From: a bacterium
GTDB lineage: Bacteria > SZUA-79 > Acidulodesulfobacterales > Acidulodesulfobacteraceae
Direction of reading: 5' to 3'
NCBI GenBank assembly: GCA_021777135.1
Contig: JAJYDX010000005.1
Span: forward strand, 1 to 64,000
Length of the DNA: 64,000 nt
Every line of letters begins with the position of its first letter. The first letter of the stretch is position 1. The notes below the pieces were generated by a model. The model did no database searches and was not told where the DNA came from. It saw only the letters and a list, made by a program, of their open reading frames with translations. Of the stretch, positions 1,854-18,316 are shown piece by piece. The translations under genes were made by a program, and so were the position numbers.

Positions 1854-2738
1854 TTAACACTGGATGTTCCACCCTCCGCATATTTGAGCGCTTAAAGACT
1901 CCGCGTAATTAACTGCGGCATTATACCCTTGCTGACCCGGATTATAATTATAAATAACGTTATTCCAAGCCGCCCTGTCAACCGCTTCTAAGGATGCCTG
2001 CCGGGCTGAAGCCGCCGCTTGAGCCGCGGCTTCCTGTATGGCGGCGCCGTTATTAGCCGCAGTATTATTATTTTGATTTCCGCCGCTATTTTGCTGAGTT
2101 TTTGGGTACGCGCTGAAGGCAAAAGGAACGCTTACGGGAACTGACAAAACCCCGTTGTTATAACTTGGCGCTCCGCCTTTTATGCCGTTTTCGAACATAG
2201 GGATATATGCCTTTAGAACCGAGCTATTCAATCCGTAAACGTCGAGTTCGTACTGCCCCTCGTTTTCATCGTTCAAACACTCCGCTATTAAAGCTCCTCC
2301 AACGGCTTTCTCTATGCAATTATCGTTGCCGTTATAGTTAGTAAGGCTTAAAGACGCTCCCTGCTGAAGAAAATACTGCCGGTTGTTTGACGGCAGAATA
2401 TCCATTCCGCTTATCAACTGCGCCTCCGTTCCAAAATAGTCGTTATTTAAAGGGGCTTTTCCTTTTTCGGCATAATTGGAATAAGACGCCATTTGATACT
2501 GGTTTTCGGCATTTATAATAGCGTTTGCAGTATTTATTGCGGCTTTTGCCTGCCCGAGTTTAAAATACCCTTCTAATAACGGCATTGCGGCTGCAACCAT
2601 TATGGATATTAATACAAGTCCGACGATTATCCCGATAAGCCCGAATCCGCCCTCGCCTACGCCGCCGCCCGCTAACGACCTCAAAGCTGTCCCGCTTTGT
2701 TTTGCGTAAAATTTTGCAATTTTTAAAATTTTTAGCAT
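1854..2738 (-). CDS. Type IV pilin-like / pseudopilin protein
   Basis: The 294-residue product starts at ATG 2736-2738, which has a GGGAGG site five bases upstream; an in-frame upstream start at 2777 lies inside a palindrome and has no such site. Residues 28-50 read GEGGFGLIGIIVGLVLISIMV. This is a prepilin-peptidase-like cleavage context (G31/F32) followed by a hydrophobic helix. The +5 residue is Gly rather than the usual Glu, and the leader of about 31 residues is long. The mature part is rich in N, A and Q. It has four Cys, two of them near the C-terminus, which could form disulfides. It is flanked by the two sulfatase-like fusions on the same strand and preceded by a Pho-box-like repeat and a 39-bp palindrome. 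The pilin-like fold is inferred from the N-terminus only; no pilus assembly genes are in the window. Confidence 0.6.
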   Translation of the reverse strand: MLKILKIAKFYAKQSGTALRSLAGGGVGEGGFGLIGIIVGLVLISIMVAAAMPLLEGYFKLGQAKAAINTANAIINAENQYQMASYSNYAEKGKAPLNNDYFGTEAQLISGMDILPSNNRQYFLQQGASLSLTNYNGNDNCIEKAVGGALIAECLNDENEGQYELDVYGLNSSVLKAYIPMFENGIKGGAPSYNNGVLSVPVSVPFAFSAYPKTQQNSGGNQNNNTAANNGAAIQEAAAQAAASARQASLEAVDRAAWNNVIYNYNPGQQGYNAAVNYAESLSAQICGGWNIQC

Positions 2739-2763
2739 AACGCCTCCCGATAAATATCGACTA

Positions 2764-2802
2764 AATATTAAAATCATATAATTATTATATGATTTTAATA
2801 TT
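2764..2802. repeat. 39-bp perfect AT-rich palindrome upstream of the pilin-like gene
   Basis: Two 19-base arms (2764-2782 and 2784-2802) are perfectly complementary around a single T at 2783. It lies between the Pho-box-like repeat and the ribosome site of the pilin-like gene, so it would fall in its leader or overlap its promoter. No T-tract follows it on the minus strand, so it is not a standard terminator for the upstream sulfatase-like gene. Confidence 0.75.
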
Positions 2803-2863: not shown

Positions 2864-5239
2864 TTAGAAATACCCCAGCTTTCTCAGCTTATCCATAGCC
2901 GCTTCCTTCTCGTCCGAACGACCGGAACGTTCGGCTACCCCTTCCCTTGGAGCCTTGGAAGTGCATGGGGCGCAGTCTATCGACCTGTAACCCTGTTCGT
3001 AGAGGGAACAGTAAGGAAGATTATAAAGTTTTATGTAATCCCATATGTCTTTTTCGGTAAAGTGAAGTATGGGATGGACCCTGTAATGATGTGGGTCCTT
3101 TCTTTTGGAAAAGAAAGACTCGTCTGCGCGGGCTTCGGTTTCGTCCCTTCTTATTCCGGTCATAAGAGCCTTTAAGTGAAGGTCTTTGACGGACTGTTTT
3201 AAAGGGGCGGTTTTAAGGGTTAAACAGCAGTCTGCCTTATCCCTGGCTATAGGATAGTTTTTCTTAAGGGCTTCTTCGTTGGAATATGTAAGAAGCTCGA
3301 AGCCCCATTCTTTTTTAATCCTTTCTATGAATTCTTTTATTTCCTTAAACTCGGCGGAGGTGTCTATCGTAATAACCTTAAAAGGTATTTTTCCGTTAAA
3401 GGCCTTCCTCGTTAAGTCTAAAAGGACGGAAGAGTCCTTGCCTCCGGTATAGGCAATGCCTATTTTGTCTCCGAACCTGTCGTATGCTTCTTTTATTATG
3501 TCTATGCCTATTGATATTTTCTCCTTTAGGAGGCTTGCGGATTCGCCAGCGAAATCGGAAGATGTTAAGCCGGCTTTATTGTTTGTATAGTTTGTATTGT
3601 TTGCGATAAGCAATGCTTCGTCTTTATCTTTGAAAATATCCTCGGCGTCAACGGCATTTTTTTCCATAAAATTTAATATTTTTATATATGCCGCGGCTTC
3701 GCCGTCGGAGAAGACCGGATTTTCTTCCAAAATATCGCCGGTTAAATCATACGATATAATTTTAAGCCTTTGACCGTATTCCGGGCTTTCTATAAATTCT
3801 TTTAAAACATCAAGCCTCGACGCGCCTCCCGATTTAAGTTTTGCAACGTGTGCCGACAGTCCTGCCTTGTCCTCCAGTCTGTTAAGGATTTTTTTATAAA
3901 GAGATTTTACGTAATCCTCGTCGGACTTGCCGCTAAACTCTTGAATGAAATCATTTAAATTAAAATCTTCGGTTGGAAAAAAATCGCCGTAATAAACAAA
4001 TTTTTTGTTTTTCGTCCTTAAGGACCTTTGAAATAAAAAATATTCGTCTTCGGGCGAAAACTTGTTTAATACAATCCCGTCTTTAATTCCTTCTTTATCT
4101 TTTTTTGCATCGCTATCGCCGGTATAGCCGATTATTTTATTAGCAAAATATTCCGAATAGCAAAACTCTCTCTCCGGCGGCTCTTCGCTAAATTTAATAC
4201 CGTCCAGACCGTATAGCCCGCCGGACGAATCAATATAACCGGGTTGATTCAAACCTGCATAATAAATCATGGACGGATAAATATCTACTATGGACGCAAG
4301 TTCGTTCCTAATCTTATCCTTTAATCCCGGAGCATGAAATATCATGGGCACGTGTATTATTTCATCGTAAAGCTCCCCCGCGTGTGAAAAGATAGATTGG
4401 TCTAAATACGAAACCCTGCCTTCGCCGTGGTCGGACAAAATGGAATATAAGGCGTCCCTGCTGAAAAATCCAAAATTTTTCAGGTTTTCGTAGAGCAGCT
4501 TAAAACGTCCGCCGTCGAATTTATTAACTCCTTTTACGTATAAAGGAAAATAGGCTTTTGCATCGTTTTTAGTTTTTGCCGAAAGTTCCTTCCAGATTGC
4601 ATGGGGCTCTTTTTCATTAATATTTATGCAGAACTTGCGGCTAATTTCCCCGACGGTTTCATAATAGTCGGCGTTGTAGTTATTGTAAAATTTTCCGAAT
4701 GGAAAAGGCGGCGTTTCACAATAAAGATACGGGTCGTGGACGTCGAAAAAATGAATGAAAAGAAATATTTTTTCGCCCCTGAGGCTTTCTATTAAATCGA
4801 GCAATGCCTTATCGTCGCCGGTAATTATATAATCAAACCCTCTTAGAAGCCCGACGGCTCCAAATATATCCATATCCATCGAAAATATAGTTTTGTAGCC
4901 GTTGTTTTTAAAAACCTCTGCCAGCGTGACGCAATTTTCGCTAAGCTTTTTATAAAAAAACGGCCTTATTCCGTGTCTTGTAGGATACAAGCCGGTAAAC
5001 ATGGAAGCATGGGCGGGAGGCGTATACGACGAAGTGCTGAAACAGTTTGTAAAATAAGAAGAATTAGCCGCTATTTCATCGAGCAACGGCGTTTTTACCT
5101 TATCCTGCAAATCGTATTTTAAAAGATGTTTTTGTTCGCCGGTATTTTTACTAAAACTCACGCAGTCGTATCTTAAGGTATCTATGGAAATAAGCAGAAC
5201 CCTATCGGCGCTGTCTGTGCTGTATTGATTAGAACTCAT
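2864..5239 (-). CDS. Sulfatase-like / DUF4214 / PAPS-reductase-like fusion, copy 2
   Basis: This 791-residue protein has three domains. Residues 12-420 are an alkaline-phosphatase/sulfatase-superfamily domain: metal-binding D20 in LLISIDTLRYD, Thr73 in SYTPPAHASMFTG at the nucleophile position, and SDHGEG at 269-274. Because Thr replaces Cys/Ser, formylglycine activation is not expected, and a phosphatase or transferase role is as likely as a sulfatase. Residues 440-495 resemble DUF4214. Residues 575-785 are a PAPS-reductase/CysD-like domain with PP-loop YTGGKDSS (597-604), TGIRRDETEAR (694-704), C671-C672 and C756-x-x-C759. The CC...CxxC pattern is that of 4Fe-4S APS reductases, but the C-terminal ECGLH catalytic tail of those enzymes is absent. 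No signal peptide is visible, so it is probably cytoplasmic. The start is ATG at 5237-5239 with no ribosome site, and the promoter position suggests a leaderless message. The substrate is unknown. Confidence 0.9.
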   Translation of the reverse strand: MSSNQYSTDSADRVLLISIDTLRYDCVSFSKNTGEQKHLLKYDLQDKVKTPLLDEIAANSSYFTNCFSTSSYTPPAHASMFTGLYPTRHGIRPFFYKKLSENCVTLAEVFKNNGYKTIFSMDMDIFGAVGLLRGFDYIITGDDKALLDLIESLRGEKIFLFIHFFDVHDPYLYCETPPFPFGKFYNNYNADYYETVGEISRKFCININEKEPHAIWKELSAKTKNDAKAYFPLYVKGVNKFDGGRFKLLYENLKNFGFFSRDALYSILSDHGEGRVSYLDQSIFSHAGELYDEIIHVPMIFHAPGLKDKIRNELASIVDIYPSMIYYAGLNQPGYIDSSGGLYGLDGIKFSEEPPEREFCYSEYFANKIIGYTGDSDAKKDKEGIKDGIVLNKFSPEDEYFLFQRSLRTKNKKFVYYGDFFPTEDFNLNDFIQEFSGKSDEDYVKSLYKKILNRLEDKAGLSAHVAKLKSGGASRLDVLKEFIESPEYGQRLKIISYDLTGDILEENPVFSDGEAAAYIKILNFMEKNAVDAEDIFKDKDEALLIANNTNYTNNKAGLTSSDFAGESASLLKEKISIGIDIIKEAYDRFGDKIGIAYTGGKDSSVLLDLTRKAFNGKIPFKVITIDTSAEFKEIKEFIERIKKEWGFELLTYSNEEALKKNYPIARDKADCCLTLKTAPLKQSVKDLHLKALMTGIRRDETEARADESFFSKRKDPHHYRVHPILHFTEKDIWDYIKLYNLPYCSLYEQGYRSIDCAPCTSKAPREGVAERSGRSDEKEAAMDKLRKLGYF

Positions 5240-5330: not shown

Positions 5331-7352
5331 ATGAATTTAGGCAGCGCCGAATATAACATGTTGTTTTCTCCGGAACGAAAAGAATATTCCGAAAATAAAG
5401 CCGAGAATATAAACCCGAAAAACGATAATAACGCCTTGGCTTTTATCGTTAACTCGGTAACTGAAAATTCCACGGTTCTAGACGTCGGATGCGCTTACGG
5501 CTACGTCGGGGAATGGCTGGTAAAAAATAAAAATTGCACGGTTTACGGCTTGGACATAGACGCCGAATCAATAGAATACGTTAAAAAAGGGGGCTTTTAC
5601 AAAGGCTTATTTAATATAGATTTAGATTATCCTGAAAATGATAAGCTTAAAACGGAACTCGATAAATTTAATTCGCTTGCGGAAGGGCTTTTCGACTTTA
5701 TTATATGCGCGGACGTCTTAGAGCACCTTAAAGACCCAGCTAGCGCTCTTGAGATTATTGCGTCAAAATTAAAATTCAGCGGTGAAATTGTCGTCAGCAT
5801 TCCTAATATAGCCCACCTCGATATTATTTTAAACCTCCTGGAAGGCAGGTTTAATTATTCCGATTTCGGACTTTTAGACAATACGCATCTGAGATTTTTT
5901 ACTAAAAGCTCATTTATAGAATTCATAAATTCCGCAAACGAAAAATTTATTAAATCAGGCTTTAAGTTCGATTTAAGAATATTTGGAGAAACTCGTTATT
6001 CTTCTGAATTTTTGGACTATATTGGAACAAAATATCCGAAAACGCACGATTTTTTTATTAATTTAAATAAAGATTTATTAATTTTACAAAATATAATAAT
6101 TCTTAATAAAGTTAATATAAATGCCAATACTTTTGAATTAAAACGGTTGATTTTCGAAAAAAATTCATTTATAAATAAAATTGAAAATAATTTAACCGAA
6201 AGAGAAAGCGCTATTGCGGAACTTAGCGAAAAGCAAAACCTCATAGCTGAATTAATTGAAAAAAACCGTATTCTAAAAGAGTCCTTAAGTAGAACTTCGG
6301 ACGAAAGAAACGCCTATCTTAACGGACTCAATGAAATAAATAAAAGCGACTTTTGGAAATTAGCCCTTTTTTATTATAAATTAAGGGATAATTCTATTTT
6401 AAAATATCCGTTTAAATTTTTAAAAAGAATTAAGCGCAAGGACCTAAAATTAAGAAATCCTTTAGGTTTTAAAAATAAAATTAGCGACAAGAACTTAAAG
6501 TTTTTAAAAAAACTTTCAAAAGATAACGGCGGAACATATAAGAATTTGAAAACGTGGTATTCGGAGAAAGAACCGATCGTCAGCATAATAATATTAAACT
6601 ACAATAAATCCGCCTTTACAGTCCAATGCGTTAAAGAAGTCTGGAAGCATACTAAGGGAATTAAATACGAAGTTATCGTAGTGGATAACGGCAGCGAACC
6701 TAATGACAAAAAGCACTTAAACGAAATAAAAAAACTCCTCGACTCTTCGCCAGATTATAAATCTTACTGTAATATAATAGAGCTGTCTAAAAACCGTTTT
6801 TTTGGAGAGGGCAACAACATAGGTTCGGAAGCGGCAAAAGGAAAATATCTTTTATTCCTAAACAACGACGCGTTTGTGACGGAAGACTGGCTTATGCCGT
6901 TAGTATCGGCTTTAGACGACAATGACACTGCAGCCGCAGGTCCTAAATTTTTATACCCGGACGGAAAACTGCAGGAAGCGGGGGCATTTATTAAACCCGA
7001 CGGAGCCGCCTTGCAGAGAGGAAAATTAGACGACCCTGATAAACCTGAATACAATGAGCAAAACGAGGTTGATTACTGTTCGGCGGCATGCTTGATAGTA
7101 AAACGCGAACTGTTTGAAGATGTTTTAGGTTTCGACCTTTGCTGGGAGCCTGCTTATTACGAAGACGTTGATTTATGTTTTAAATTTAAACTGTTAAATA
7201 AAAAAACGATTTACGTTCCTTCATCAAAAATTGTTCATATGGAAAACCTGACTTCTTCCGACAAGAATTATCCTCTCAAATTAAACAACATAGTAGAAAT
7301 AAACCGCGATAAATTCGTAAGAAAATATAAAGAAATAATTAATTATAAGTAA
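5331..7352 (+). CDS. SAM methyltransferase - coiled coil - family 2 glycosyltransferase fusion
   Basis: The 673-residue product has a class I methyltransferase domain at about 30-220, with motif I VLDVGCAYG (49-57), an acidic GLDID (73-77) and DVLEHL (128-133). A charged region of about 270-335 looks coiled-coil. A GT-A family 2 glycosyltransferase domain covers about 415-665, with VSIIILNYN (417-425), VVDNGSE, a NND at 511-513 in the place of the DxD metal motif, and YEDVDLCFKF. It is likely to extend and methylate a surface polysaccharide or glycoprotein glycan. The methyltransferase could act as a chain-length cap, as in some O-antigen systems, but that is inference. It is followed after five bases by a GT4 gene, so the two form an operon. 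Confidence 0.88.
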   Translation: MNLGSAEYNMLFSPERKEYSENKAENINPKNDNNALAFIVNSVTENSTVLDVGCAYGYVGEWLVKNKNCTVYGLDIDAESIEYVKKGGFYKGLFNIDLDYPENDKLKTELDKFNSLAEGLFDFIICADVLEHLKDPASALEIIASKLKFSGEIVVSIPNIAHLDIILNLLEGRFNYSDFGLLDNTHLRFFTKSSFIEFINSANEKFIKSGFKFDLRIFGETRYSSEFLDYIGTKYPKTHDFFINLNKDLLILQNIIILNKVNINANTFELKRLIFEKNSFINKIENNLTERESAIAELSEKQNLIAELIEKNRILKESLSRTSDERNAYLNGLNEINKSDFWKLALFYYKLRDNSILKYPFKFLKRIKRKDLKLRNPLGFKNKISDKNLKFLKKLSKDNGGTYKNLKTWYSEKEPIVSIIILNYNKSAFTVQCVKEVWKHTKGIKYEVIVVDNGSEPNDKKHLNEIKKLLDSSPDYKSYCNIIELSKNRFFGEGNNIGSEAAKGKYLLFLNNDAFVTEDWLMPLVSALDDNDTAAAGPKFLYPDGKLQEAGAFIKPDGAALQRGKLDDPDKPEYNEQNEVDYCSAACLIVKRELFEDVLGFDLCWEPAYYEDVDLCFKFKLLNKKTIYVPSSKIVHMENLTSSDKNYPLKLNNIVEINRDKFVRKYKEIINYK

Positions 7353-7357
7353 AATCT

Positions 7358-8572
7358 ATGAATAATAATGATTTGAAAACTTCTTTTAATAATATAGCGG
7401 TCGGAAAAAGGGCGGCTATTTATACCCCTTACGATTTAATGCCAGGCGGCGGCGAGAAGTATCTGCTTACGATAGCCGAATATTTTCTGAAAGAAGGCTG
7501 CAAAGTTTCTTTGTTATTCGATGAAATATACAGCAAACTGCGCCTAAAGCAAATGGAAAACGAATTAGGCGTGCGTCTTGACGGTGCAACAGCCTATGCC
7601 TATTCCGAAGCGGTAAAAAAAATAAAAGCCGGAGAAGAAAAGTTCGACATATTCGTTTCGATGGGCAACAGCCTTACTCCTTGGATTAATCCGCTAGGAA
7701 ATCATAACGTATATATCTGCCAGTTTCCTTTTCCGCAGGACGAAGACTGGATTATTGAAAATTCCGCTACCCTTAAGAAATATGACGAGATAATCGTTTA
7801 TTCAGACTTTGTAATGGAACGGTATAAAAATTTGCTTAAAAAATACGGTCTGCCGGATACAAGGGTCAGCGTAGTTTACCCTCCCTGCCGTTCTCAAAGC
7901 GGATTGGTTTTTGAAGAGTTAAAAAAACTGCCGGATACAAAGCCCGCGGATAAAATTATCATACTGACGGTAGGCAGGTTTTTCAGCGAAGGACACTGCA
8001 AAAGACAGGATTTTTTAATAGAATCGTTTATAGAAATGCTTCCGTCAATCTCATACTTAAATGTTGAACTTCACGTAGCGGGAGGGATTCATCCGACTAA
8101 GGACGGCAGGGACTTTTTTACAAAATGCAAAAATATGGCTCAAGACTTTAATAACATTTTTTTATACGGCAACATCGATGCCCATTCACTTAAGGAATTA
8201 TACTTTAATGCCCATATATACTGGCATGCCGCAGGAATTAACGTAGATTCGTCAGCGCATCCAGAAATGCTCGAACATTTCGGTATAACGGTGGTAGAGG
8301 CGATGTCTGCCGGAGCTATCCCCATAGTCGTAAATAAAGGGGGTCCGGCGGAAATAGTAAGAAACGGAATTGAAGGTTTTTGCTTCAATTCAAAAGAAGA
8401 ACTTATAGGACTTACCGTCGACGCCGTTAAAAAGATAACAGCGGACCGCAATATTGGCAAAAAAAGTAAACTTGAATCCCTTGTCGAAAACTCTTTACTG
8501 CGCGCGACAGACTTTACTAAAGAAAAATTTTATTCGCGGTTGGAATCTATATTTCCGAACAAGAAAATATAA
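7358..8572 (+). CDS. Family 4 glycosyltransferase
   Basis: A 404-residue GT-B enzyme. The N-terminal acceptor domain has the glycine-rich motif DLMPGGGEKYL (27-37). The nucleotide-sugar domain begins near IILTVGRFF (201-209). The GT4 EX7E motif is E306-H-F-G-I-T-V-V-E314, followed by AMSAGAIPIVVNKGGPAEIV. The overall style resembles ALG11/mannosyltransferase-like GT4 proteins, but donor and acceptor cannot be set from sequence. It starts five bases after the methyltransferase-GT2 gene and is probably translated from the same message. No membrane segment is seen. Confidence 0.88.
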   Translation: MNNNDLKTSFNNIAVGKRAAIYTPYDLMPGGGEKYLLTIAEYFLKEGCKVSLLFDEIYSKLRLKQMENELGVRLDGATAYAYSEAVKKIKAGEEKFDIFVSMGNSLTPWINPLGNHNVYICQFPFPQDEDWIIENSATLKKYDEIIVYSDFVMERYKNLLKKYGLPDTRVSVVYPPCRSQSGLVFEELKKLPDTKPADKIIILTVGRFFSEGHCKRQDFLIESFIEMLPSISYLNVELHVAGGIHPTKDGRDFFTKCKNMAQDFNNIFLYGNIDAHSLKELYFNAHIYWHAAGINVDSSAHPEMLEHFGITVVEAMSAGAIPIVVNKGGPAEIVRNGIEGFCFNSKEELIGLTVDAVKKITADRNIGKKSKLESLVENSLLRATDFTKEKFYSRLESIFPNKKI

Positions 8573-8688: not shown

Positions 8689-11232
8689 TTACACAACACT
8701 GACAACGTTGATTACAGGCGCATGGCTCGTAAGATCGGTTGCTAACGTTGAAGCGGTTCCGACTAATTGAACGACGGAATCGGCATGGGTCGGCGTATTA
8801 GTATATAAAGAATAACCAACGATATACGTATCGCCGCCATATTGGAACCAATTTACATAATTACCGGTCGTAGTGTCATTAGTAGTCATATATTGAACTA
8901 TATCATATACGGCTTGTGCCTGAGTAGCGTTGCTTGCGATTGTAGCTAATGCGGCTGATGTAGCTTCAGATAAAGTAGCTGGAGTTGAGAGTGTTCCGCC
9001 AGTTGCTAACGGCAAATCTATAGTAAGATTTGTTAGTCCAACATGGGTTCCTGTGGTAACGGTATAATTATTATCGGTAATCGCGGTATAGCCGGCAAGC
9101 GATGCCGAAGAAGAAGGTACAGACGCCGTAGTATATGTAGTAGCCTCGGCGTTTATAGTATTTGTTCCAGTACCTACGGTTACGGTATCATGACCGCTAC
9201 CGCTTGCATTTAAAACAATACTATTACCATTTGCATTGCCTACGGTAACGGTGTCGTTCAAAGATGCGGCAGAGCCGTTTGACAGCGTTAAGGTTAATGC
9301 TCCGGTAAGCGCCCCTGCATTAACGGTAAGGCCTGCGCTTGGAGCAGGACTCGTTGTCGCATCTACAGCATTAATCGTTAAAGCTTCGGAACCGGTTAAA
9401 GTAACGGTTGCGCCGTCGGCGACGTTAAGAGCGCTAATAGTATTAGTACCTGCGGTTGAACTATTCGATTCGATATTAATATAGCTCTGTGGCGCAACTC
9501 CTGCTAACGGTGATAAATAAGTATCTATAGCCGTAACAGTTATATTTCCGCCCATTGTTAAATTTGCGGCATTATTACCAGAAGCATCGGATATGGTAAA
9601 CGAAGTTCCAACATTTTGATTGATATTGAATACGTCTCCGCTTGTTCCGCTTGTTCCGGTTCCCAATGCGTCTTTTACTACTATCGTGGCTGCACCTGAT
9701 GAAAACGTAACGTTATTGATGGAAGAATTCATATTTGCCATATCTATCGTCGGCATAGTTGTAACTGATGTGTAAAACCCTAGTCCAGTAAAGTGCGACG
9801 CATCGTTAGTGTAAGACTTAATATCTCCAGCTGTCGGAGCAGCGTAATTAAACTCCAAAGTGTTTGTTCCCGCCGAATTGCCGTCGAAGGCGTAAGTAAC
9901 GCCGGTATTAGGAACGGCAGTTAATACGACCGTATCGGTTCCCGTGCCGCCGGTAAAAGTGAAAGCTTTTGACGAGTTTGATTGGGTTGTGGTCATAACA
10001 TATGTTAAGGTAGCATCATCATTGCTTGCATTTACGGAGTCGATATAATTAGTGCCAGTTATCATGGTATCGTCCTTCGCGGTCGTATCTGTAAGATTTA
10101 AAGATGTTAATGTAGAAGTAGCAGTGTCGGCTATCGTGACACTATTATTTCCTTCTAACGTCAAGTTAAGCGTAGCCATTGAACTTGCTTTTGGATTGGC
10201 ATTTACGTCTAACGTAAGAATATCCGCCGGCGTGGTCAGTAACCCTACATTTTCAAGCGTAACGTTTCCGCTTGTTCCGGTAGAATTTACATACATTGTA
10301 ACAGGAGCTGCATTAGCAATGCTTTCAAGAGTAACGTTCTGCGTGGAAGATTCTGTATAACCAATAGTGCTGTTATTTCCACTTCCTGCTGCTACTCCAT
10401 CGACGACCAAACTCGTAACTCCGCTCAGACCGCTTATGTTAATTACATCTGAGGCTGCATCTGTATTTACCAATATGGTGCTAACTCCGCTCATTGTAGG
10501 TAAATAACTAGCAGTAGTAGTACCAACCGTAATACTCCCATTAATCGTCAGCGTCGCTCCACCGGCTCCAGCCTGTAGGGTATCTCCAGCAAGTTGTGTA
10601 TTTGAAGTTTGAGCACCTGTAACCCCAGAATCTAACACAAAATCCACTATCCCTGCTGTGGACGGCTCTATGTAGCTTGAACTAGAAGCCATTAAATCAA
10701 CCGTAGTTCCCGCCACAAAAGCATTTACCGCCGGCATATTCGAACCGGTAGCTACCGTTCCCGTCATAACTGTCGTAGGATTAACCTGATTGATATAAGC
10801 GGAAGCGTTTGCGGTATTATACGTAAAGCTTGGGTTTGCGCCCAAATAGCCGGTGTAGTTGTTTGCGTACGCTATTTTGTCCGTCATTACCAAGTAGTCC
10901 TGAGAATTGGTCGGCTCGGCTAAAACGTCGGTATAAATCTGGCTTGCTACCTGAGCTATCGTCATTCCGCCGGCAATTTCTCCGTTAAAGAACGCCAATC
11001 CCGCTGCTGCCGGAGTACGTCCGAGTAAGTTCTCAAATAAGTCTGTTACGGTTAGGCTTGACGAAACTTCAGGCGAACCCGCTATCTGTCCGAAAACCGT
11101 TACTGGGTTTGCGCCGGTAGCAAGTTCGGAACCGAAATAATTATATCCTGCTGTAGCCGCCGGACGGTCGAAAAGTTCGATAAAAATAGATTGCACTTCA
11201 TTATAATAACTTTGTGAAGATGCTGTTGCCAT
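8689..11232 (-). CDS. DUF4214 surface protein A, likely type I secretion substrate
   Basis: An 847-residue protein without Cys. Residues about 5-125 contain two DUF4214-type helical units (YYNEVQSIFIELFDRPAATA... and FENLLGRTPAAAG...). The rest is a long Thr/Ser/Asn/Gly-rich beta-strand region with loose repeats (DTVTVGTGTNTI, NVTLEN, SLNLTD) typical of secreted beta-solenoid or S-layer-like proteins. The C-terminal end has NWFQYGGDTYIV and DSVVQLVG, as in C-terminal domains of type I secreted surface proteins, and a hydrophobic tail (NVVSVV). There is no N-terminal signal peptide, which fits type I secretion, and a TolC/ABC/HlyD set lies upstream. The ATG is preceded by a strong AGGAGG site. 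Residues 1-562 are identical to protein B and the remainder differs. RTX nonapeptides are not clear. Confidence 0.85.
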   Translation of the reverse strand: MATASSQSYYNEVQSIFIELFDRPAATAGYNYFGSELATGANPVTVFGQIAGSPEVSSSLTVTDLFENLLGRTPAAAGLAFFNGEIAGGMTIAQVASQIYTDVLAEPTNSQDYLVMTDKIAYANNYTGYLGANPSFTYNTANASAYINQVNPTTVMTGTVATGSNMPAVNAFVAGTTVDLMASSSSYIEPSTAGIVDFVLDSGVTGAQTSNTQLAGDTLQAGAGGATLTINGSITVGTTTASYLPTMSGVSTILVNTDAASDVINISGLSGVTSLVVDGVAAGSGNNSTIGYTESSTQNVTLESIANAAPVTMYVNSTGTSGNVTLENVGLLTTPADILTLDVNANPKASSMATLNLTLEGNNSVTIADTATSTLTSLNLTDTTAKDDTMITGTNYIDSVNASNDDATLTYVMTTTQSNSSKAFTFTGGTGTDTVVLTAVPNTGVTYAFDGNSAGTNTLEFNYAAPTAGDIKSYTNDASHFTGLGFYTSVTTMPTIDMANMNSSINNVTFSSGAATIVVKDALGTGTSGTSGDVFNINQNVGTSFTISDASGNNAANLTMGGNITVTAIDTYLSPLAGVAPQSYINIESNSSTAGTNTISALNVADGATVTLTGSEALTINAVDATTSPAPSAGLTVNAGALTGALTLTLSNGSAASLNDTVTVGNANGNSIVLNASGSGHDTVTVGTGTNTINAEATTYTTASVPSSSASLAGYTAITDNNYTVTTGTHVGLTNLTIDLPLATGGTLSTPATLSEATSAALATIASNATQAQAVYDIVQYMTTNDTTTGNYVNWFQYGGDTYIVGYSLYTNTPTHADSVVQLVGTASTLATDLTSHAPVINVVSVV

Positions 11233-11396
11233 TTTAAATCCTCCTAGGTATTTTCAAACTTTACATACTTTTTATGATTTATTTTTTATATTTTTATTTT
11301 TTTTACAATAAACACATTTAATATTTGCCTTTATTTTACTAAATATTAAATTAAAGTTCACATAGCGCATAATATTGCATATAATATATGCAAAAA

Positions 11397-11426
11397 CTCC
11401 CGACCACGCGCAAACGCAGTCGGGAG
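11397..11426 (-). terminator. Stem-loop terminator after DUF4214 protein B
   Basis: This has the same 8-bp stem and inner GCG/CGC as the element at 8620. Here the minus strand continues with GTTTTTGC, a better T-tract. It also lies upstream of the start of protein A, separating the two transcription units. Confidence 0.72.
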
Positions 11427-11463
11427 CATTAAATTAAATAAATCTGACACTTTTTTGCAGTAA

Positions 11464-14004
11464 TTATCCAACAGTTACAGTAGGTTGATGACTCGTTAGA
11501 TCTGTTGCTAACGTTGAAGCGGTTCCAACTAACTGAACGACGGAATATGCATAATCGGTTGTTGCTGTGCCAACAGAATAACTCACTATATACGTATCGC
11601 CGCCATATTGAAACCAATTTGCATAATTAGTAGCAACAGTAGTATCATGTGCTGTCATATATGCAGCTACATCATGTATAGCTTGAGCCTGAGTAGCACT
11701 ACTTGAAATATTAGCAGTAGTTGTTGATATCTCAGACATAGTTGGACTACTAATTACTCCGCCAGTTGTTGCAGTAGGTGTTATTATAGTAAGATTTGTT
11801 AGTCCAACATGGGTTCCTGTGGTAACGGTATAATTATTATCGGTAATCGCGGTATAGCCGGTAAGAGTAGCAGATGAGGTTGGTGCAGTTGTTGAATATG
11901 TATATGCAGTAGCCTCGGCGTTTATAGTATTTGTTCCAGTACCTACGGTTACGGTATCATGACCGCTATTGCTTGCATTTAAAGTAATACTATTACCATT
12001 TGCATTGCCTACGGTAACGGTGTCGTTCAAAGATGCGGCAGCACCGTTTGACAGCGTTAAGGTTAATGCTCCGGTAAGCGCCCCTGCATTAACGGTAAGG
12101 CCAGCGCTTGGAGTAGGACTCGTTGTCGCATCTACAGCAGTAATCGTTAAAGCTTCGGAACCGGTTAAAGTAACGGTTGCGCCGTCGGCAACGTTAAGAG
12201 CGGTAATAGTATTTACAGTATTCGCACTTGAACTATTCGATTCGATATTAATATAACTTTGCGGAGCAACTCCTGCTAACGGTGATAAATAAGTATCAAT
12301 AGCTGCAACGGTAAAACCTCCGCCCATTGTTAAATTTGCGGCATTATTACCAGAAGCATCGGATATGGTAAACGAAGTTCCAACATTTTGATTGATATTG
12401 AATACGTCTCCGCTTGTTCCGCTTGTTCCGGTTCCCAATGCGTCTTTTACTACTATCGTGGCTGCACCTGATGAAAACGTAACGTTATTGATGGAAGAAT
12501 TCATATTTGCCATATCTATCGTCGGCATAGTTGTAACTGATGTGTAAAACCCTAGTCCAGTAAAGTGCGACGCATCGTTAGTGTAAGACTTAATATCTCC
12601 AGCTGTCGGAGCAGCGTAATTAAACTCCAAAGTGTTTGTTCCCGCCGAATTGCCGTCGAAGGCGTAAGTAACGCCGGTATTAGGAACGGCAGTTAATACG
12701 ACCGTATCGGTTCCCGTGCCGCCGGTAAAAGTGAAAGCTTTTGACGAGTTTGATTGGGTTGTGGTCATAACATATGTTAAGGTAGCATCATCATTGCTTG
12801 CATTTACGGAGTCGATATAATTAGTGCCAGTTATCATGGTATCGTCCTTCGCGGTCGTATCTGTAAGATTTAAAGATGTTAATGTAGAAGTAGCAGTGTC
12901 GGCTATCGTGACACTATTATTTCCTTCTAACGTCAAGTTAAGCGTAGCCATTGAACTTGCTTTTGGATTGGCATTTACGTCTAACGTAAGAATATCCGCC
13001 GGCGTGGTCAGTAACCCTACATTTTCAAGCGTAACGTTTCCGCTTGTTCCGGTAGAATTTACATACATTGTAACAGGAGCTGCATTAGCAATGCTTTCAA
13101 GAGTAACGTTCTGCGTGGAAGATTCTGTATAACCAATAGTGCTGTTATTTCCACTTCCTGCTGCTACTCCATCGACGACCAAACTCGTAACTCCGCTCAG
13201 ACCGCTTATGTTAATTACATCTGAGGCTGCATCTGTATTTACCAATATGGTGCTAACTCCGCTCATTGTAGGTAAATAACTAGCAGTAGTAGTACCAACC
13301 GTAATACTCCCATTAATCGTCAGCGTCGCTCCACCGGCTCCAGCCTGTAGGGTATCTCCAGCAAGTTGTGTATTTGAAGTTTGAGCACCTGTAACCCCAG
13401 AATCTAACACAAAATCCACTATCCCTGCTGTGGACGGCTCTATGTAGCTTGAACTAGAAGCCATTAAATCAACCGTAGTTCCCGCCACAAAAGCATTTAC
13501 CGCCGGCATATTCGAACCGGTAGCTACCGTTCCCGTCATAACTGTCGTAGGATTAACCTGATTGATATAAGCGGAAGCGTTTGCGGTATTATACGTAAAG
13601 CTTGGGTTTGCGCCCAAATAGCCGGTGTAGTTGTTTGCGTACGCTATTTTGTCCGTCATTACCAAGTAGTCCTGAGAATTGGTCGGCTCGGCTAAAACGT
13701 CGGTATAAATCTGGCTTGCTACCTGAGCTATCGTCATTCCGCCGGCAATTTCTCCGTTAAAGAACGCCAATCCCGCTGCTGCCGGAGTACGTCCGAGTAA
13801 GTTCTCAAATAAGTCTGTTACGGTTAGGCTTGACGAAACTTCAGGCGAACCCGCTATCTGTCCGAAAACCGTTACTGGGTTTGCGCCGGTAGCAAGTTCG
13901 GAACCGAAATAATTATATCCTGCTGTAGCCGCCGGACGGTCGAAAAGTTCGATAAAAATAGATTGCACTTCATTATAATAACTTTGTGAAGATGCTGTTG
14001 CCAT
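11464..14004 (-). CDS. DUF4214 surface protein B, likely type I secretion substrate
   Basis: An 846-residue tandem paralog of protein A. The first 562 residues are the same, and DNA blocks 12320-14017 and 9548-11245 read alike wherever I compared them (constant offset 2772). From residue 563 on the copies differ by substitutions and small indels, ending in SHQPTVTV in place of SHAPVINVV. It has the same domain plan: N-terminal DUF4214 pair, Thr/Ser-rich beta-strand region, and C-terminal NWFQYGGDTYIV module. It lies nearest the secretion operon and has the same AGGAGG site before its ATG. Two palindromes occupy its upstream region. It probably forms or anchors to a surface layer; that role is inferred from family and context. 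Confidence 0.85.
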   Translation of the reverse strand: MATASSQSYYNEVQSIFIELFDRPAATAGYNYFGSELATGANPVTVFGQIAGSPEVSSSLTVTDLFENLLGRTPAAAGLAFFNGEIAGGMTIAQVASQIYTDVLAEPTNSQDYLVMTDKIAYANNYTGYLGANPSFTYNTANASAYINQVNPTTVMTGTVATGSNMPAVNAFVAGTTVDLMASSSSYIEPSTAGIVDFVLDSGVTGAQTSNTQLAGDTLQAGAGGATLTINGSITVGTTTASYLPTMSGVSTILVNTDAASDVINISGLSGVTSLVVDGVAAGSGNNSTIGYTESSTQNVTLESIANAAPVTMYVNSTGTSGNVTLENVGLLTTPADILTLDVNANPKASSMATLNLTLEGNNSVTIADTATSTLTSLNLTDTTAKDDTMITGTNYIDSVNASNDDATLTYVMTTTQSNSSKAFTFTGGTGTDTVVLTAVPNTGVTYAFDGNSAGTNTLEFNYAAPTAGDIKSYTNDASHFTGLGFYTSVTTMPTIDMANMNSSINNVTFSSGAATIVVKDALGTGTSGTSGDVFNINQNVGTSFTISDASGNNAANLTMGGGFTVAAIDTYLSPLAGVAPQSYINIESNSSSANTVNTITALNVADGATVTLTGSEALTITAVDATTSPTPSAGLTVNAGALTGALTLTLSNGAAASLNDTVTVGNANGNSITLNASNSGHDTVTVGTGTNTINAEATAYTYSTTAPTSSATLTGYTAITDNNYTVTTGTHVGLTNLTIITPTATTGGVISSPTMSEISTTTANISSSATQAQAIHDVAAYMTAHDTTVATNYANWFQYGGDTYIVSYSVGTATTDYAYSVVQLVGTASTLATDLTSHQPTVTVG

Positions 14005-14277: not shown

Positions 14278-14964
14278 TTAATTAAAATATTTTTTTATTT
14301 CTTTATTTATAAAGGATTTAAACCTTTCCTTAATGTCGTCTGGAGTTATCAAAACCGGATTTGCTTCCGCAAAGAACCGCGGCTTGTTGTTTATATCGGC
14401 TTTAATAAGATAGCCGGACGAAATTTTCCCCTGGGGACTTTCTTGCTTTGAGTATGCGCCGACATCTATTCCGATGAATAAGTTGTTAGCGGTTTTAAAT
14501 CCAAATTTATAAAACGACGTTACGACGTCGCCCAACGGGTCGAATTTAGAAAAAGTTTTGAACAAGTAGGAGTTTAGTTCATTTGCGGGTTTGTCGGAAG
14601 GTATTATTATCGTTGAAATTATGCCTGTGTCTTTAATGTTTGCTTCTCCTTCAAAAATCTTGGTGTCGTTAAAAAAAATATCGGTATAACTAATAATAGT
14701 ATCGACCTGTTTATCTAATGCGTCGTCTCTATCGAAAGCTAAAGCAAGATTGGCAGATATCTGGGATATTCCGATGCCTTTTGACTCATCTTTAATTAAA
14801 ATGCGAGGCAAGGAAGGATTCTGCCCGTCTGCGGCGTTTGTATTGACAGACGGCTTATCGTTTATATTCCCGTATATTTCTTCCGCCTTTTGCTGTTTAA
14901 GCCTGACGAAATTATCCTGATTGAACGATACCGCAATCAGCGCTTCGGATATATACATATTCAT
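14278..14964 (-). CDS. Protein of unknown function in the secretion cluster
   Basis: A 228-residue product that I do not recognise. It has no signal peptide, membrane segment or Cys-based motif. It alternates hydrophobic strands with charged helices (ALIAVSFNQDNF near the start, DDIKERFKSFINKEIKKYF at the end), suggesting a soluble alpha/beta protein. The start at 14964 follows an AGGAG site by about ten bases; a second ATG two codons later is possible. It sits between the HlyD-type adaptor and the DUF4214 substrates on the same strand. A role in regulation, chaperoning or targeting of the substrates is only suggested by position. Confidence 0.7.
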   Translation of the reverse strand: MNMYISEALIAVSFNQDNFVRLKQQKAEEIYGNINDKPSVNTNAADGQNPSLPRILIKDESKGIGISQISANLALAFDRDDALDKQVDTIISYTDIFFNDTKIFEGEANIKDTGIISTIIIPSDKPANELNSYLFKTFSKFDPLGDVVTSFYKFGFKTANNLFIGIDVGAYSKQESPQGKISSGYLIKADINNKPRFFAEANPVLITPDDIKERFKSFINKEIKKYFN

Positions 14965-15064
14965 ATTGTTTAATTCTCCTAATTGCCGGCGTTTGAGCCT
15001 AAGCTTTTAACTTTTAATTGAGTTTACAATATAAGCCAAACGTTGTCAAGTAGTTTCCTTATTC

Positions 15065-16429
15065 TTATTTTACGAAAGCGTTTGTAATCTTATACATAAG
15101 GGGATTTAAAAGCTCTCCCAGTAGTGTTTTTGCGCCTGTTTTAACCGTAACCTCGGCAGGCATTCCGGCTTTTAGTTTTAGCTTCCGACGGGCAAGGGTT
15201 TTTAAGCCTTTTGAATTTATTTTTATTTTACATTCGTAAAAAGGCACATGGTTAACCGGATTTGCCATGCTGTTTGCGGAGACGTAAATTACCCTGCCGC
15301 TTATAACCGGTATGTCGGCAACGTCGAAAGCCGGAAACCTTAAATCTGCGGATAAGCCTTTATGTATTCGGGCTATATACTGCGCCGGTATGTCTCCTTT
15401 TACTATCAGGTTCTGGTGCAACGGTATAACGTCGACTATGGGCTGTCCGGGCATTACGGCGCCGCCTACGGTCTTATTGAATATTTTAACGACTATTCCT
15501 TTTGATGGGGAAGAAACGCGGGAATTTTTTACCTGATTAAGCGCGGCTTTATATTGCTGTTTAAGCGAAAAAACCATGCTCTGGACGTCGTTAAGCTCTT
15601 TATTTACGTTTTTTAAAAAGTTGTTCCTGAGGTTGTCCAGTTTTAATTCGTCTTCGGAAAGGGAGCCTTCGGCTCTCGACAAATCGCCGGTTTCTTCGTT
15701 CAGCCTTCCGTTTAACTGCGCTAAGCTGCTTTCCATTTCTATTACTTTTACTTTTGGGTAGTACCCTTCGGACGCGAGTTTTTTAAGCGGTTTAATCTCT
15801 TTTTGGGCAAGGTTCATCTGGTTTAAGGTTGAAATTTTAAGCTGTTTTAAGTTCTCTACATAGCTTTTAAGCCCTGTTATGTTGACGCGCAGTATGCTTT
15901 TTTCCGCGTTAAAATTTATAGTTTCGGTATTAAAAAGCTCCTTCTGGGTAGCCATGGCTTCCTGTGCCTGATTAGAACCTTTAAACGAATATAAGGCACT
16001 TGGAAAACTTATACCGCTTTTTCCTCCGTCCTCCGCCATAAGCCTTCCGTACATCGCGAGATAGGTAATATAGCGGCTTTTAACGGAGGCTAAGTTGGAC
16101 TTTTGCTGTGCGTCTTCCAGAAGCAAAATAGGCTGTTTTTTTTTAACGGTCTGCCCTTCGCGCGCGACGACTTCCTTAATAGTTCCGCCGTAGCGGCTTT
16201 GCAGGACGATTTCGTTAGACGCGGTAGTAACCGTTCCAGGCATATTGGTACCTTTTGTCATAGGGGCAAAAGCCGCCCATATTATAAAACCTAAAAAACC
16301 CCCTATGAGGACGGCGAATCCGGCAAAGATGACGGGTTTTTTATTAGTATGCAAAGAAGTTTCTATAGCTTCGACGGAAGTTTCGGCGTCGTTTTTTTCT
16401 TCTTTATTAATCCAGTCTAGAAGTTTCAT
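15065..16429 (-). CDS. Type I secretion membrane fusion protein (HlyD/PrtE family)
   Basis: A 454-residue periplasmic adaptor linking the ABC transporter to TolC. A short cytoplasmic N-terminus precedes one membrane helix at 33-54 (VIFAGFAVLIGGFLGFII). A biotinyl-lipoyl-like first half (GTVTTASNEIVLQSRYGG) leads into a long coiled-coil hairpin at about 150-290. The second lipoyl half follows (VSSPSKGIVVKIF), then a beta-barrel domain ending with LKAGMPAEVTVKTG, a typical HlyD-family signature. The start is supported by AGGA eight bases before the ATG. It lies 42 bases after the ABC transporter gene. Confidence 0.93.
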   Translation of the reverse strand: MKLLDWINKEEKNDAETSVEAIETSLHTNKKPVIFAGFAVLIGGFLGFIIWAAFAPMTKGTNMPGTVTTASNEIVLQSRYGGTIKEVVAREGQTVKKKQPILLLEDAQQKSNLASVKSRYITYLAMYGRLMAEDGGKSGISFPSALYSFKGSNQAQEAMATQKELFNTETINFNAEKSILRVNITGLKSYVENLKQLKISTLNQMNLAQKEIKPLKKLASEGYYPKVKVIEMESSLAQLNGRLNEETGDLSRAEGSLSEDELKLDNLRNNFLKNVNKELNDVQSMVFSLKQQYKAALNQVKNSRVSSPSKGIVVKIFNKTVGGAVMPGQPIVDVIPLHQNLIVKGDIPAQYIARIHKGLSADLRFPAFDVADIPVISGRVIYVSANSMANPVNHVPFYECKIKINSKGLKTLARRKLKLKAGMPAEVTVKTGAKTLLGELLNPLMYKITNAFVK

Positions 16430-16471
16430 AAAGTATATCCTGTTTTTTTATTTTTATTTTTATTAATTTGT

Positions 16472-18238
16472 TCAGTTTCTTACTTCCGGCACTGGAGGAT
16501 TTCCAGATGCGGGAGGTTGGCTTTGATTGTTTTTAGACGCCAAAATAGCATTTAGGACGTCGTTTCTGGATCCGTACATCTGCACGGTGCCGCCGGATAA
16601 GACTAAAATCTTATCGACTACGGATAAGATGTGGTTCCTGTGGCTTATAATAAATACCGTAGATTTTTGTTCCTTAAGTTTTGAAAGAGTGTAAAGAAGA
16701 GCATGTCCGCCTATGTCGTCCAGATTTGAATCGGGCTCGTCCAGAACGACTAGAGCGGGGCTGCCGTATATAGCCCTCGCAAGCGCGACCCTCTGTTTTT
16801 GCCCGCCTGAAAGCACGAGTCCGCCTTCGCCGATGAAAGTATCGTATCCGTCCGGCAAATTAAGTATAAGGTCGTGTATTCCGACGGTTTTTGCGGCTTC
16901 TATTACATTGAACGAATCCACCTCGCCGAAACGACCTATATTTTCTGCTACAGTGCCGTTTAAAAGCTCTATGTCCTGAGGCAGGTAGCCGATATTTGGA
17001 CCGAGCGCGTCTTTATCCCACGAAAAAATTTCGGCTCCGTCCAAGCGCATGCTTCCCATAGCTGGCGGCCAGACTCCGGTAATCATTCTGCCCAGAGTAG
17101 ATTTTCCCGAACCGCTTGGACCTATTATAGCAACCATATCTCCTTTATCCGCCGTAAAATTAATATTTTTTAAAATCTGCATATTCGAGTTCGGGGGGAC
17201 GGAAAAAAGGTTAAGAGCGGCGACTCTTCCTTCCGGCTGAGGCAATGGCATTCCTTTTTCTTTTTCGGGAAATAAAGTAAGAGTCTGGCTTAGCCTTTTA
17301 TAAGAGTCCCTTGCCGATACGAACCCTTTCCATGCTCCCATGGCAAGGTCTATGGGGGAAAGCGCCCTGCCCATCAAGATGGCGGCGGCTACCATCGCGC
17401 CGGCGGTGATAATGTTTCCGTTGATAACGAAATATGCGGCGACGGCGTATATCAGGGACTGAAAAGCTATTCTTAAGGTCTTCGATGCGGCCGAAACATT
17501 GCCGGTCTTTTCGCTTGCGGAAGACTGAAGGGAAACAAATTTTATATACTTTGGATACCAGTGCTTCTTGACGTTGGACAGCATACCCATCGATTCTATG
17601 ACGTCCGCGTTTCTAAAATTTATTGAGGCAAAATTTGAAGCCGTATGATAAGCGTTATTGGACGCGGATAATTTTTTCTTGCTTACCATTTCGGTTAAAA
17701 AAGCGAGAAAAAACAAAACTATGGCGGCAAAGGCGGCGAAAACCCCCAGCACCCAGTAAATTATTCCTATTACTATAATATAGATGGGGACCCACGGAAC
17801 GTCGAAAAAGGCGATAGCGCCCGTGCCCGTCAAAAACTGCCTGATGTTCGTAAAATCGCCGAAAACTTGCGAAGAATCGGTGCTTCCGGTGCGCAGGCAT
17901 TTCTCAAAAGCCGCCTGAAACAGCCTGTTGTGAAATTTTCTGTCCATATCGTTTCCTATGCGTATTAAAAGCTGGGTCCTCGTCCACTCAAAAAAACCCA
18001 TAAGCGCATATACGAAAACAACCAAAATAGTTACGAAAACTAAGGTAACGTTGCTTCTGCCGGGAAGGACGGTGTCGTAAATCTGGAGCATATAAAGCGC
18101 CGGAGCAAGCATTATAAGGTTTATAACCAAGCTAAAAATCCCGACGATATAAAAATCCTTCTTGAAGGATTTTAAAAGCGATAGAAGCTCCGGGTCTTTT
18201 TGTATTGCAAAAGGCTTATTGCGCTTAAAAATGGACAT
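16472..18238 (-). CDS. Type I secretion ABC transporter permease/ATPase (PrtD family)
   Basis: A 588-residue half-transporter. The membrane domain spans about 30-310 with several hydrophobic helices. The ATPase domain has Walker A GPSGSGKS (373-380), Q-loop GYLPQDIELL, signature LSGGQKQR (476-483), Walker B LVVLDEP (496-502) and a switch His in IISHR. The length and absence of an N-terminal peptidase domain match PrtD/LapB-type exporters of proteins with uncleaved C-terminal signals. The adjacent tandem DUF4214 proteins are the obvious cargo. It lies between the TolC and HlyD genes on the same strand. Confidence 0.94.
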   Translation of the reverse strand: MSIFKRNKPFAIQKDPELLSLLKSFKKDFYIVGIFSLVINLIMLAPALYMLQIYDTVLPGRSNVTLVFVTILVVFVYALMGFFEWTRTQLLIRIGNDMDRKFHNRLFQAAFEKCLRTGSTDSSQVFGDFTNIRQFLTGTGAIAFFDVPWVPIYIIVIGIIYWVLGVFAAFAAIVLFFLAFLTEMVSKKKLSASNNAYHTASNFASINFRNADVIESMGMLSNVKKHWYPKYIKFVSLQSSASEKTGNVSAASKTLRIAFQSLIYAVAAYFVINGNIITAGAMVAAAILMGRALSPIDLAMGAWKGFVSARDSYKRLSQTLTLFPEKEKGMPLPQPEGRVAALNLFSVPPNSNMQILKNINFTADKGDMVAIIGPSGSGKSTLGRMITGVWPPAMGSMRLDGAEIFSWDKDALGPNIGYLPQDIELLNGTVAENIGRFGEVDSFNVIEAAKTVGIHDLILNLPDGYDTFIGEGGLVLSGGQKQRVALARAIYGSPALVVLDEPDSNLDDIGGHALLYTLSKLKEQKSTVFIISHRNHILSVVDKILVLSGGTVQMYGSRNDVLNAILASKNNQSQPPASGNPPVPEVRN

Positions 18239-18260
18239 ATGTACTAATTCCTTTATTAAG

Positions 18261-18304
18261 GGGGACAGATTAAAATCTGTCCCCGAGGGGTATTATCTGT
18301 CCCC
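18261..18304. repeat. REP-like inverted repeat between TolC and ABC transporter genes
   Basis: GGGGACAGAT (18261-18270) and ATCTGTCCCC (18275-18284) form a 10-bp hairpin with a TAAA loop. A third half-copy, ATCTGTCCCC, follows at 18295-18304. Palindromes with this kind of sequence occur as dispersed extragenic elements in many bacteria. It could stabilise or attenuate the message between the two secretion genes. Confidence 0.6.
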
Positions 18305-18316
18305 GGTTATTATTGA

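Follow-up and report, generated by a model that had tools for sequence, protein, structure and literature searches.

The window, i.e. the whole 64,000-nt stretch of DNA that was analysed, contains a single intact open reading frame (ORF) with an ATG start codon, which encodes 791 amino acids and lies exactly at the coordinates recorded beforehand in a sequence-only reading of the same DNA (Table 1). A Pfam search of the 791-aa protein gave matches to Sulfatase (PF00884; aa 14-329, 79 bits versus a cut-off of 25), DUF4214 (PF13946; aa 433-488, 49.4 bits versus a gathering score of 23.2) and PAPS_reduct (aa 595-761, 153 bits, above the curated cut-off). The three domains postulated in that reading were therefore all found on one polypeptide, in the order sulfatase[DUF4214]-PP-loop. 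The protein is probably cytoplasmic, as had also been proposed, since no hydrophobic stretch was seen by eye at its N-terminus.

Table 1. Features of the fusion gene and of its neighbourhood in the window.
Feature	Position (nt)	Strand	Basis
Tandem paralogue, same domain order, cut by the contig end	1..1745	minus	
Gene of the fusion (791 aa), encoding a sulfatase-fold domain in which DUF4214 is nested and, behind it, a CysD-type PP-loop domain	2864..5239	minus	ORF and Pfam
CysD-type PP-loop (adenylyltransferase-like) domain, aa 566-791, with C-terminal ERSGR..KE..M..LR.LGYF	2867..3544	minus	
CxxC 756-759, second half of putative 4Fe-4S motif	2963..2974	minus	
Cys pair 671-672, first half of putative 4Fe-4S motif	3224..3229	minus	
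PP-loop motif TGGKDS, aa 598-603	3431..3448	minus	
Sulfatase C-terminal subdomain, part behind the insertion (aa 491-530, YDLTGDILEENP...): return strand 491-498, helix 514-527	3650..3769	minus	Covered by Foldseek alignments
DUF4214 four-helix insertion, aa 433-488, in the sulfatase C-terminal subdomain	3776..3943	minus	Pfam, structure model
Core of the sulfatase domain (aa 10-420; alkaline phosphatase superfamily), with metal ligands D20, D270 and H271, and with H286	3980..5212	minus	
Thr73 codon, predicted nucleophile, at the formylglycine Cys/Ser position	5021..5023	minus	Invariant in 16 fusions and 19 further sulfatase-type proteins
Methyltransferase-glycosyltransferase (GT2) fusion, divergent neighbour	5331..7352	plus	Pfam
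GT4 glycosyltransferase	7358..8572	plus	Pfam
Pair of nearly identical repetitive proteins in tandem (847 and 846 aa), DUF4214 near the N-terminus	8689..14004 (8689-11232, 11464-14004)	minus	ORFs and Pfam

A frame error joining two separate genes, which had been named beforehand as a possible artefact, was ruled out by stop-free orthologues with the same domain order, low dN/dS values and the second, tandem copy. Sixteen full-length, stop-free ORFs (730-862 aa) from 13 genomes share this order and 156 invariant residues. In close orthologues, dN/dS was 0.02-0.22 across the domains and 0.06-0.11 for both catalytic domains, which are under purifying selection. The fusion architecture is real and conserved.

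The sulfatase part of the tandem paralogue is 46% identical to that of the target. Over the final 127 nt of the paralogue the two sequences agree at every position (target from nt 1676 onward), so that the truncation looks like the break of a de Bruijn assembly in a repeat. Contig C71 starts within the same PP-loop sequence, of which it contains the final 100 nt, and then continues into a flippase-GT4 gene; judged from these ends it probably carries the rest of the tandem paralogue (inferred C9-C71 join). It is likely that two fusions lie in tandem here, with PP-loop halves that are nearly the same and sulfatase halves that have diverged. Between them lies a pilin-like ORF (1854-2777, minus strand) with a hydrophobic N-terminus by eye and no Pfam match; relatives of this ORF (cluster cl4) occur near fusions in other genomes.

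DUF4214 was also detected by Pfam near the N-terminus of the protein encoded at 8689-11232, in agreement with the earlier observation that the adjoining proteins start with the same domain type. The two repetitive proteins are candidate surface proteins, probably surface-layer proteins or adhesins. The ORFs at 14278-19705 (minus strand) resemble, by eye, the components of a type I secretion system (adaptor, ABC exporter, outer-membrane channel).

Neighbours of the fusions in the phylum of the window comprise GT2, GT4 and GT8 glycosyltransferases, methyltransferases, an RmlA-like nucleotidyltransferase and the flippase-GT4 fusion; among these biosynthetic glycan neighbours, no catabolic genes were seen in the examined loci. 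In one genome (G014), a TPR-Sulfotransfer_3 protein adjoins two tandem fusions. Five orthologues from one genus (L047, L048, L049, L050 and L061) are located outside glycan loci, in a housekeeping region beside ffh and, where both flanks were assembled, between recR and ffh (both named by eye).

Membership of the N-terminal domain in the alkaline phosphatase (AP) superfamily was indicated by the Pfam score, the invariant set of metal ligands and Foldseek matches to sulfatases. Residues D20, T73, D270, H271 and H286 were invariant in the alignment of the 16 fusions. Fold and metal ligands are common to the fusion and the formylglycine-dependent S1 sulfatases (BuS1_11, 7lj2; BT1596, 5g2u), but the formylglycine motif C/S-x-P-x-R is replaced by T73-P-P-A-H77, with Thr73 in place of Cys/Ser and His77 in place of the motif Arg. 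Thr was found at this position in 16/16 fusions and in 19 sampled sulfatase-type relatives of archaeal and bacterial origin. Because of this exchange, hydrolysis of sulfate esters by the usual mechanism appears unlikely, and a hydrolytic formylglycine sulfatase is an unlikely identity. Known enzymes of the AP superfamily with a Thr nucleophile act mostly on phosphate.

In the AlphaFold model of the fusion (built with 11 sequences; mean pLDDT 67.5, i.e. moderate), four helices (428-483) lie between a strand at 412-419 and a strand at 491-498 (YDLTGDILEENP), which is followed by a helix at 514-527. The stretch behind these helices resembles a sulfatase tail (ELYDL..DP.E..N), and the alignments with sulfatases obtained by Foldseek extended over 550-600 columns. 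Based on the flanking strands, the sulfatase-like tail and the alignments spanning it, DUF4214 is most likely an insertion in the C-terminal subdomain of the sulfatase domain; the earlier view of DUF4214 as a connector of the two catalytic domains was dropped. The insert was not detected in two genomes (G012 and G002).

The C-terminal domain contains the CysD-specific motifs RRDE...R..E..FS.R and ERxGR..KE..M..LR..GY(F/M). C671, C672, C756 and C759 are invariant in the 16 fusions and form the CC...CxxC pattern of the 4Fe-4S cysteines expected for CysH; CC and CxxC are also present in true CysD proteins encoded beside CysN. The PAPS_reduct fold and these cysteines are shared with CysH and the assimilatory APS/PAPS reductases (2goy, 4bwv), but motif comparison revealed no ECG(I/L)H with the catalytic Cys in the PP-loop domains of the fusions, which end in LGYF and belong to another clade. 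In a maximum-likelihood tree, they were placed on the CysD side, split from CysH and APS reductases with 100/100 support, and classical CysD proteins with a CysN neighbour formed a branch of their own (100/100), to which neither the fusions nor the archaeal CysN-less proteins belong. The best match by sequence in the PDB was APS reductase 2goy, FAD synthase was also matched, and the best fold match by rmsd among the PP-loop hits was the CysD subunit 1zun_A (33% identity, 2.6 A).

The fusion has the PP-loop, RRDE...R..E..FS.R and the C-terminal GYF in common with the CysD subunit of CysDN sulfate adenylyltransferase (1zun_A). It differs in being joined to a sulfatase-fold domain, in its separate, well-supported branch, in the lack of CysN above the cut-off in its genome and in its scores below the cut-offs of the NCBIfam CysD models (NF003587, 141.8 versus 195 bits; TIGR02039, 105 versus 397). 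Profile searches gave no CysN above the cut-off in the 13 fusion genomes and in 5 genomes of archaea with CysN-less (type-B) proteins. An identity as PAPS reductase was rejected because of the missing ECG(I/L)H cysteine and the tree placement; the domain is of the CysD type. We know of no activity described for any CysN-less CysD-like member.

Strong matches to the fusion were obtained in 16 of the 30 genomes that represent the phylum in the collection, all of one family. The group may correspond to the Ca. Acidulodesulfobacterales of acid mine drainage (PMC6776010). The search for the domain order across genomes that had been suggested as a check recovered it in the 16 full-length ORFs of this phylum. 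Beyond the phylum, no fusion turned up among 386 genomes sampled from the whole bacterial domain, and the scan of named genomes was performed with few exact peptides, which distant fusions would escape. No fusions were found on plasmids, phages or viral contigs, where the matches were to CysD-like or sulfatase proteins singly. The architecture is apparently lineage-specific. No description of an enzyme with the architecture sulfatase[DUF4214]-PP-loop was found in the open-licence literature searched, consistent with the original claim of an undescribed arrangement; novelty is not thereby proven. Two kinds of apparent fusion were discarded: 'full-length' matches in Zetaproteobacteria were ordinary cysH and cysD genes lying close together, and the ORFs of family f34, fusion-like by length (777-833 aa), have a central sulfatase domain and no PP-loop.

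Sulfatase[DUF4214] proteins without the PP-loop half occur in one other bacterial family (G391, G529; 39-42% identity to the target), and the PP-loop half was therefore probably added later, or lost in that family. Each of two such unfused genes (L191, 7339-8964; L192, 9-1313) has a second small sulfatase-family ORF upstream. Mean identity among the fusions was 0.65 for the PP-loop half, 0.56 for the sulfatase half and 0.40 for the DUF4214 insert; this higher conservation of the PP-loop fits a common activation step with varying acceptors.

CysD-like genes beside AP-superfamily genes were also found unfused. All six type-B genes of Thermoplasmatota (two in G032, one each in G148, G145, G082 and G166) are located beside a sulfatase-family gene, five with 12-17 bp between the matches and one with an intervening glycosyltransferase-like gene. 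With only one or two sulfatase genes in each of these genomes, the probability of such pairing by random placement is approximately 1e-15, ignoring common descent. Several of these loci are, by eye, glycosyltransferase clusters. A sample of 47 CysD-side and 7 CysH loci was picked by PP-loop similarity; its members come from Thermoplasmatota, from DPANN archaea and from a number of families of bacteria. An AP-superfamily gene was present within 4 kb at 32/47 CysD-side loci (14/22 without CysN, 18/25 with CysN) versus 0/7 CysH loci (Fisher p = 0.001, ignoring descent; neighbouring genes in related genomes are not independent), and 15/47 CysD-side loci had no such gene near. The unlinked pairs (Thermoplasmatota L040 and L116-L120; DPANN L197, L198 and L205; bacterium L202) resemble the fusion in the adjacency of both components and the absence of CysN, but they consist of separate genes, in reverse order in Thermoplasmatota, and the archaeal type-B PP-loop lacks CC and CxxC. 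The association of CysD-type and AP-superfamily proteins is wider than the fusion lineage, and no description of it was found in the open-licence papers searched. Its occurrence in many archaea and bacteria points to a little-recognised sulfation of cell-surface glycans.

CysD-CysN operons of bacteria and DPANN archaea (L209, L211-L215, L222-L226 and others) often contain a gene of the 'Type I phosphodiesterase / alkaline phosphatase family', which is possibly a general sulfotransferase partner of CysDN. On plasmid pHALXA01 of Halopiger xanaduensis (L128/L150), the PP-loop gene is clustered with a PHO4-family transporter, three sulfatase-type, two alkaline-phosphatase-family and GT4 genes, and the transporter might carry sulfate. 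The PP-loop gene of Natrinema pellirubrum follows aglM in an agl/flippase locus. In 3/5 haloarchaeal plasmids the PP-loop gene is isolated, with no glycan genes near. On Desulfolutivibrio plasmids (L131, 737-1884; L132, 8574-9780), a CysN-less CysD-like gene adjoins a TatA gene; the stretch read contained no sulfatase, and one plasmid carries a sulfotransferase.

A precedent for sulfotransfer by such proteins exists in Halobacterium salinarum, where Agl30/Agl31 (VNG1056C/VNG1057C), annotated as alkaline-phosphatase/sulfatase-like, were shown in 2025 by gene deletion and heterologous expression in Haloferax to be N-glycan sulfotransferases; their sulfuryl donor was not named (PMC11980604). Compared by description, they are, like the fusion, sulfatase-like AP-superfamily proteins in a glycan locus, and BT1596 (5G2T/5G2U) and 6HHM are similar to the fusion by sequence search and to Agl30/Agl31 by the published DALI comparison; for Agl30/Agl31, neither a fused activation domain nor DUF4214 is reported (PMC11980604). 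The ascamycin cluster with its 'sulfatase' acmG is only a loose precedent.

Because of the gene pairing and the activity of Agl30/Agl31, the most economical reading is that the fusion sulfates rather than hydrolyses. Judged from sequence and context, we consider it somewhat probable that the fusion is a cytoplasmic, CysN-independent sulfation enzyme, with APS synthesis by the CysD-like domain and sulfuryl transfer to a surface glycan by the Thr-type domain. The earlier proposal that the two domains are coupled through sulfonucleotide chemistry to modify glycans has good support from the context; release of sulfate or phosphate, its other part, appears the less likely direction in view of the Thr nucleophile and the archaeal 'sulfatases' that are sulfotransferases.

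Sulfurylation by ATP is energetically very unfavourable, and CysD normally requires CysN. We infer APS formation, sulfuryl transfer, acceptor and docking as follows. The C-terminal domain would adenylylate sulfate to APS, and the N-terminal domain would pass the sulfuryl group of APS on, perhaps by way of a Thr-sulfate intermediate, to a hydroxyl of a surface-glycan precursor with release of AMP. Tethering of the two domains would pull the sulfurylase step forward without CysN by immediate use of APS. The nested DUF4214 would probably dock the enzyme on its acceptor, and it may be speculated that DUF4214-bearing surface proteins or their glycosylation machinery are bound. Counting against sulfation are these energetics, the phosphate substrates of most known Thr-nucleophile relatives, the moderate quality of the structure model, the CysD score below the cut-off, Sat and five APS kinases in the host, the five orthologues beside ffh and the 15/47 unpaired loci.

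The PP-loop domain could instead adenylylate a phosphorylated or carboxylated glycan precursor, as FAD synthase does with FMN, and the Thr-type domain could act on the product as a phosphotransferase or phosphodiesterase, using or trimming it so that the glycan receives a phosphate-linked group. Thr is the nucleophile of phosphoglycerol and phosphoethanolamine transferases, FAD synthase is among the matches of the PP-loop domain, and the AP partners at CysD-CysN loci score as Type I phosphodiesterase; we nevertheless regard this as rather unlikely, since the tree groups the domain with CysD, genuine CysD-CysN sulfurylases are the neighbours of many of the same AP partners, and the 'sulfatases' of an archaeal glycan cluster are sulfotransferases (PMC11980604). 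A bifunctional control or recycling enzyme, with hydrolysis of APS or sulfate esters in the AP domain and renewed activation of the sulfate in the PP-loop domain, is improbable: both active sites look intact, but the formylglycine motif is absent, a futile cycle within a single polypeptide is implausible, and the gene lies among biosynthetic rather than catabolic glycan genes. PF00884 and PF01663 do include many hydrolases. A sulfonucleotide reductase supplying sulfite to a sulfo-sugar pathway, which the CC and CxxC cysteines and the top sequence match 2goy would suit, is very improbable given the missing catalytic Cys, the 100/100 separation from CysH and the presence of the same cysteines in true CysD.

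Sulfate activation and sulfotransfer are of a known kind, and there is a fair chance that the fusion marks a broader unrecognised class. We tentatively propose a widespread, largely unrecognised class of APS-dependent AP-superfamily sulfotransferases with CysD-type activators, for which glycan sulfation would require neither APS kinase nor PAPS nor, in this lineage, CysN, and which would be fused into a self-contained enzyme with a DUF4214 docking insert in the phylum of the window. The usual search for sulfotransferases relies on PAPS-dependent Pfam families, and the annotation of AP-superfamily proteins, 'sulfatase', implies the opposite direction. If the proposal is true, many 'sulfatases' and 'PAPS reductases' of archaeal and bacterial glycan loci are mis-annotated, and a single-chain enzyme that needs ATP and sulfate for sulfation would be of value in biocatalysis. 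The sulfuryl donor of the archaeal N-glycan sulfotransferases would likewise become a testable question (PMC11980604).

Sat was found in 12 and true APS kinase in 10 of the 13 fusion genomes. A genome search gave no true APS kinase in the type-B archaea, and PAPS is therefore not an obvious donor there. The genome of the window (G000) encodes Sat and five APS kinases, so PAPS is obtainable without the fusion protein. Among these APS kinase genes (L167, L168 and L170; contigs C29, C53 and C61), at least two are located beside Sulfotransfer_3 genes, and the PAPS route is therefore probably a further means of glycan sulfation in the host, whose small genome would contain several loci of this type. 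One of these pairs lies in a locus with flippase and sugar-epimerase genes.
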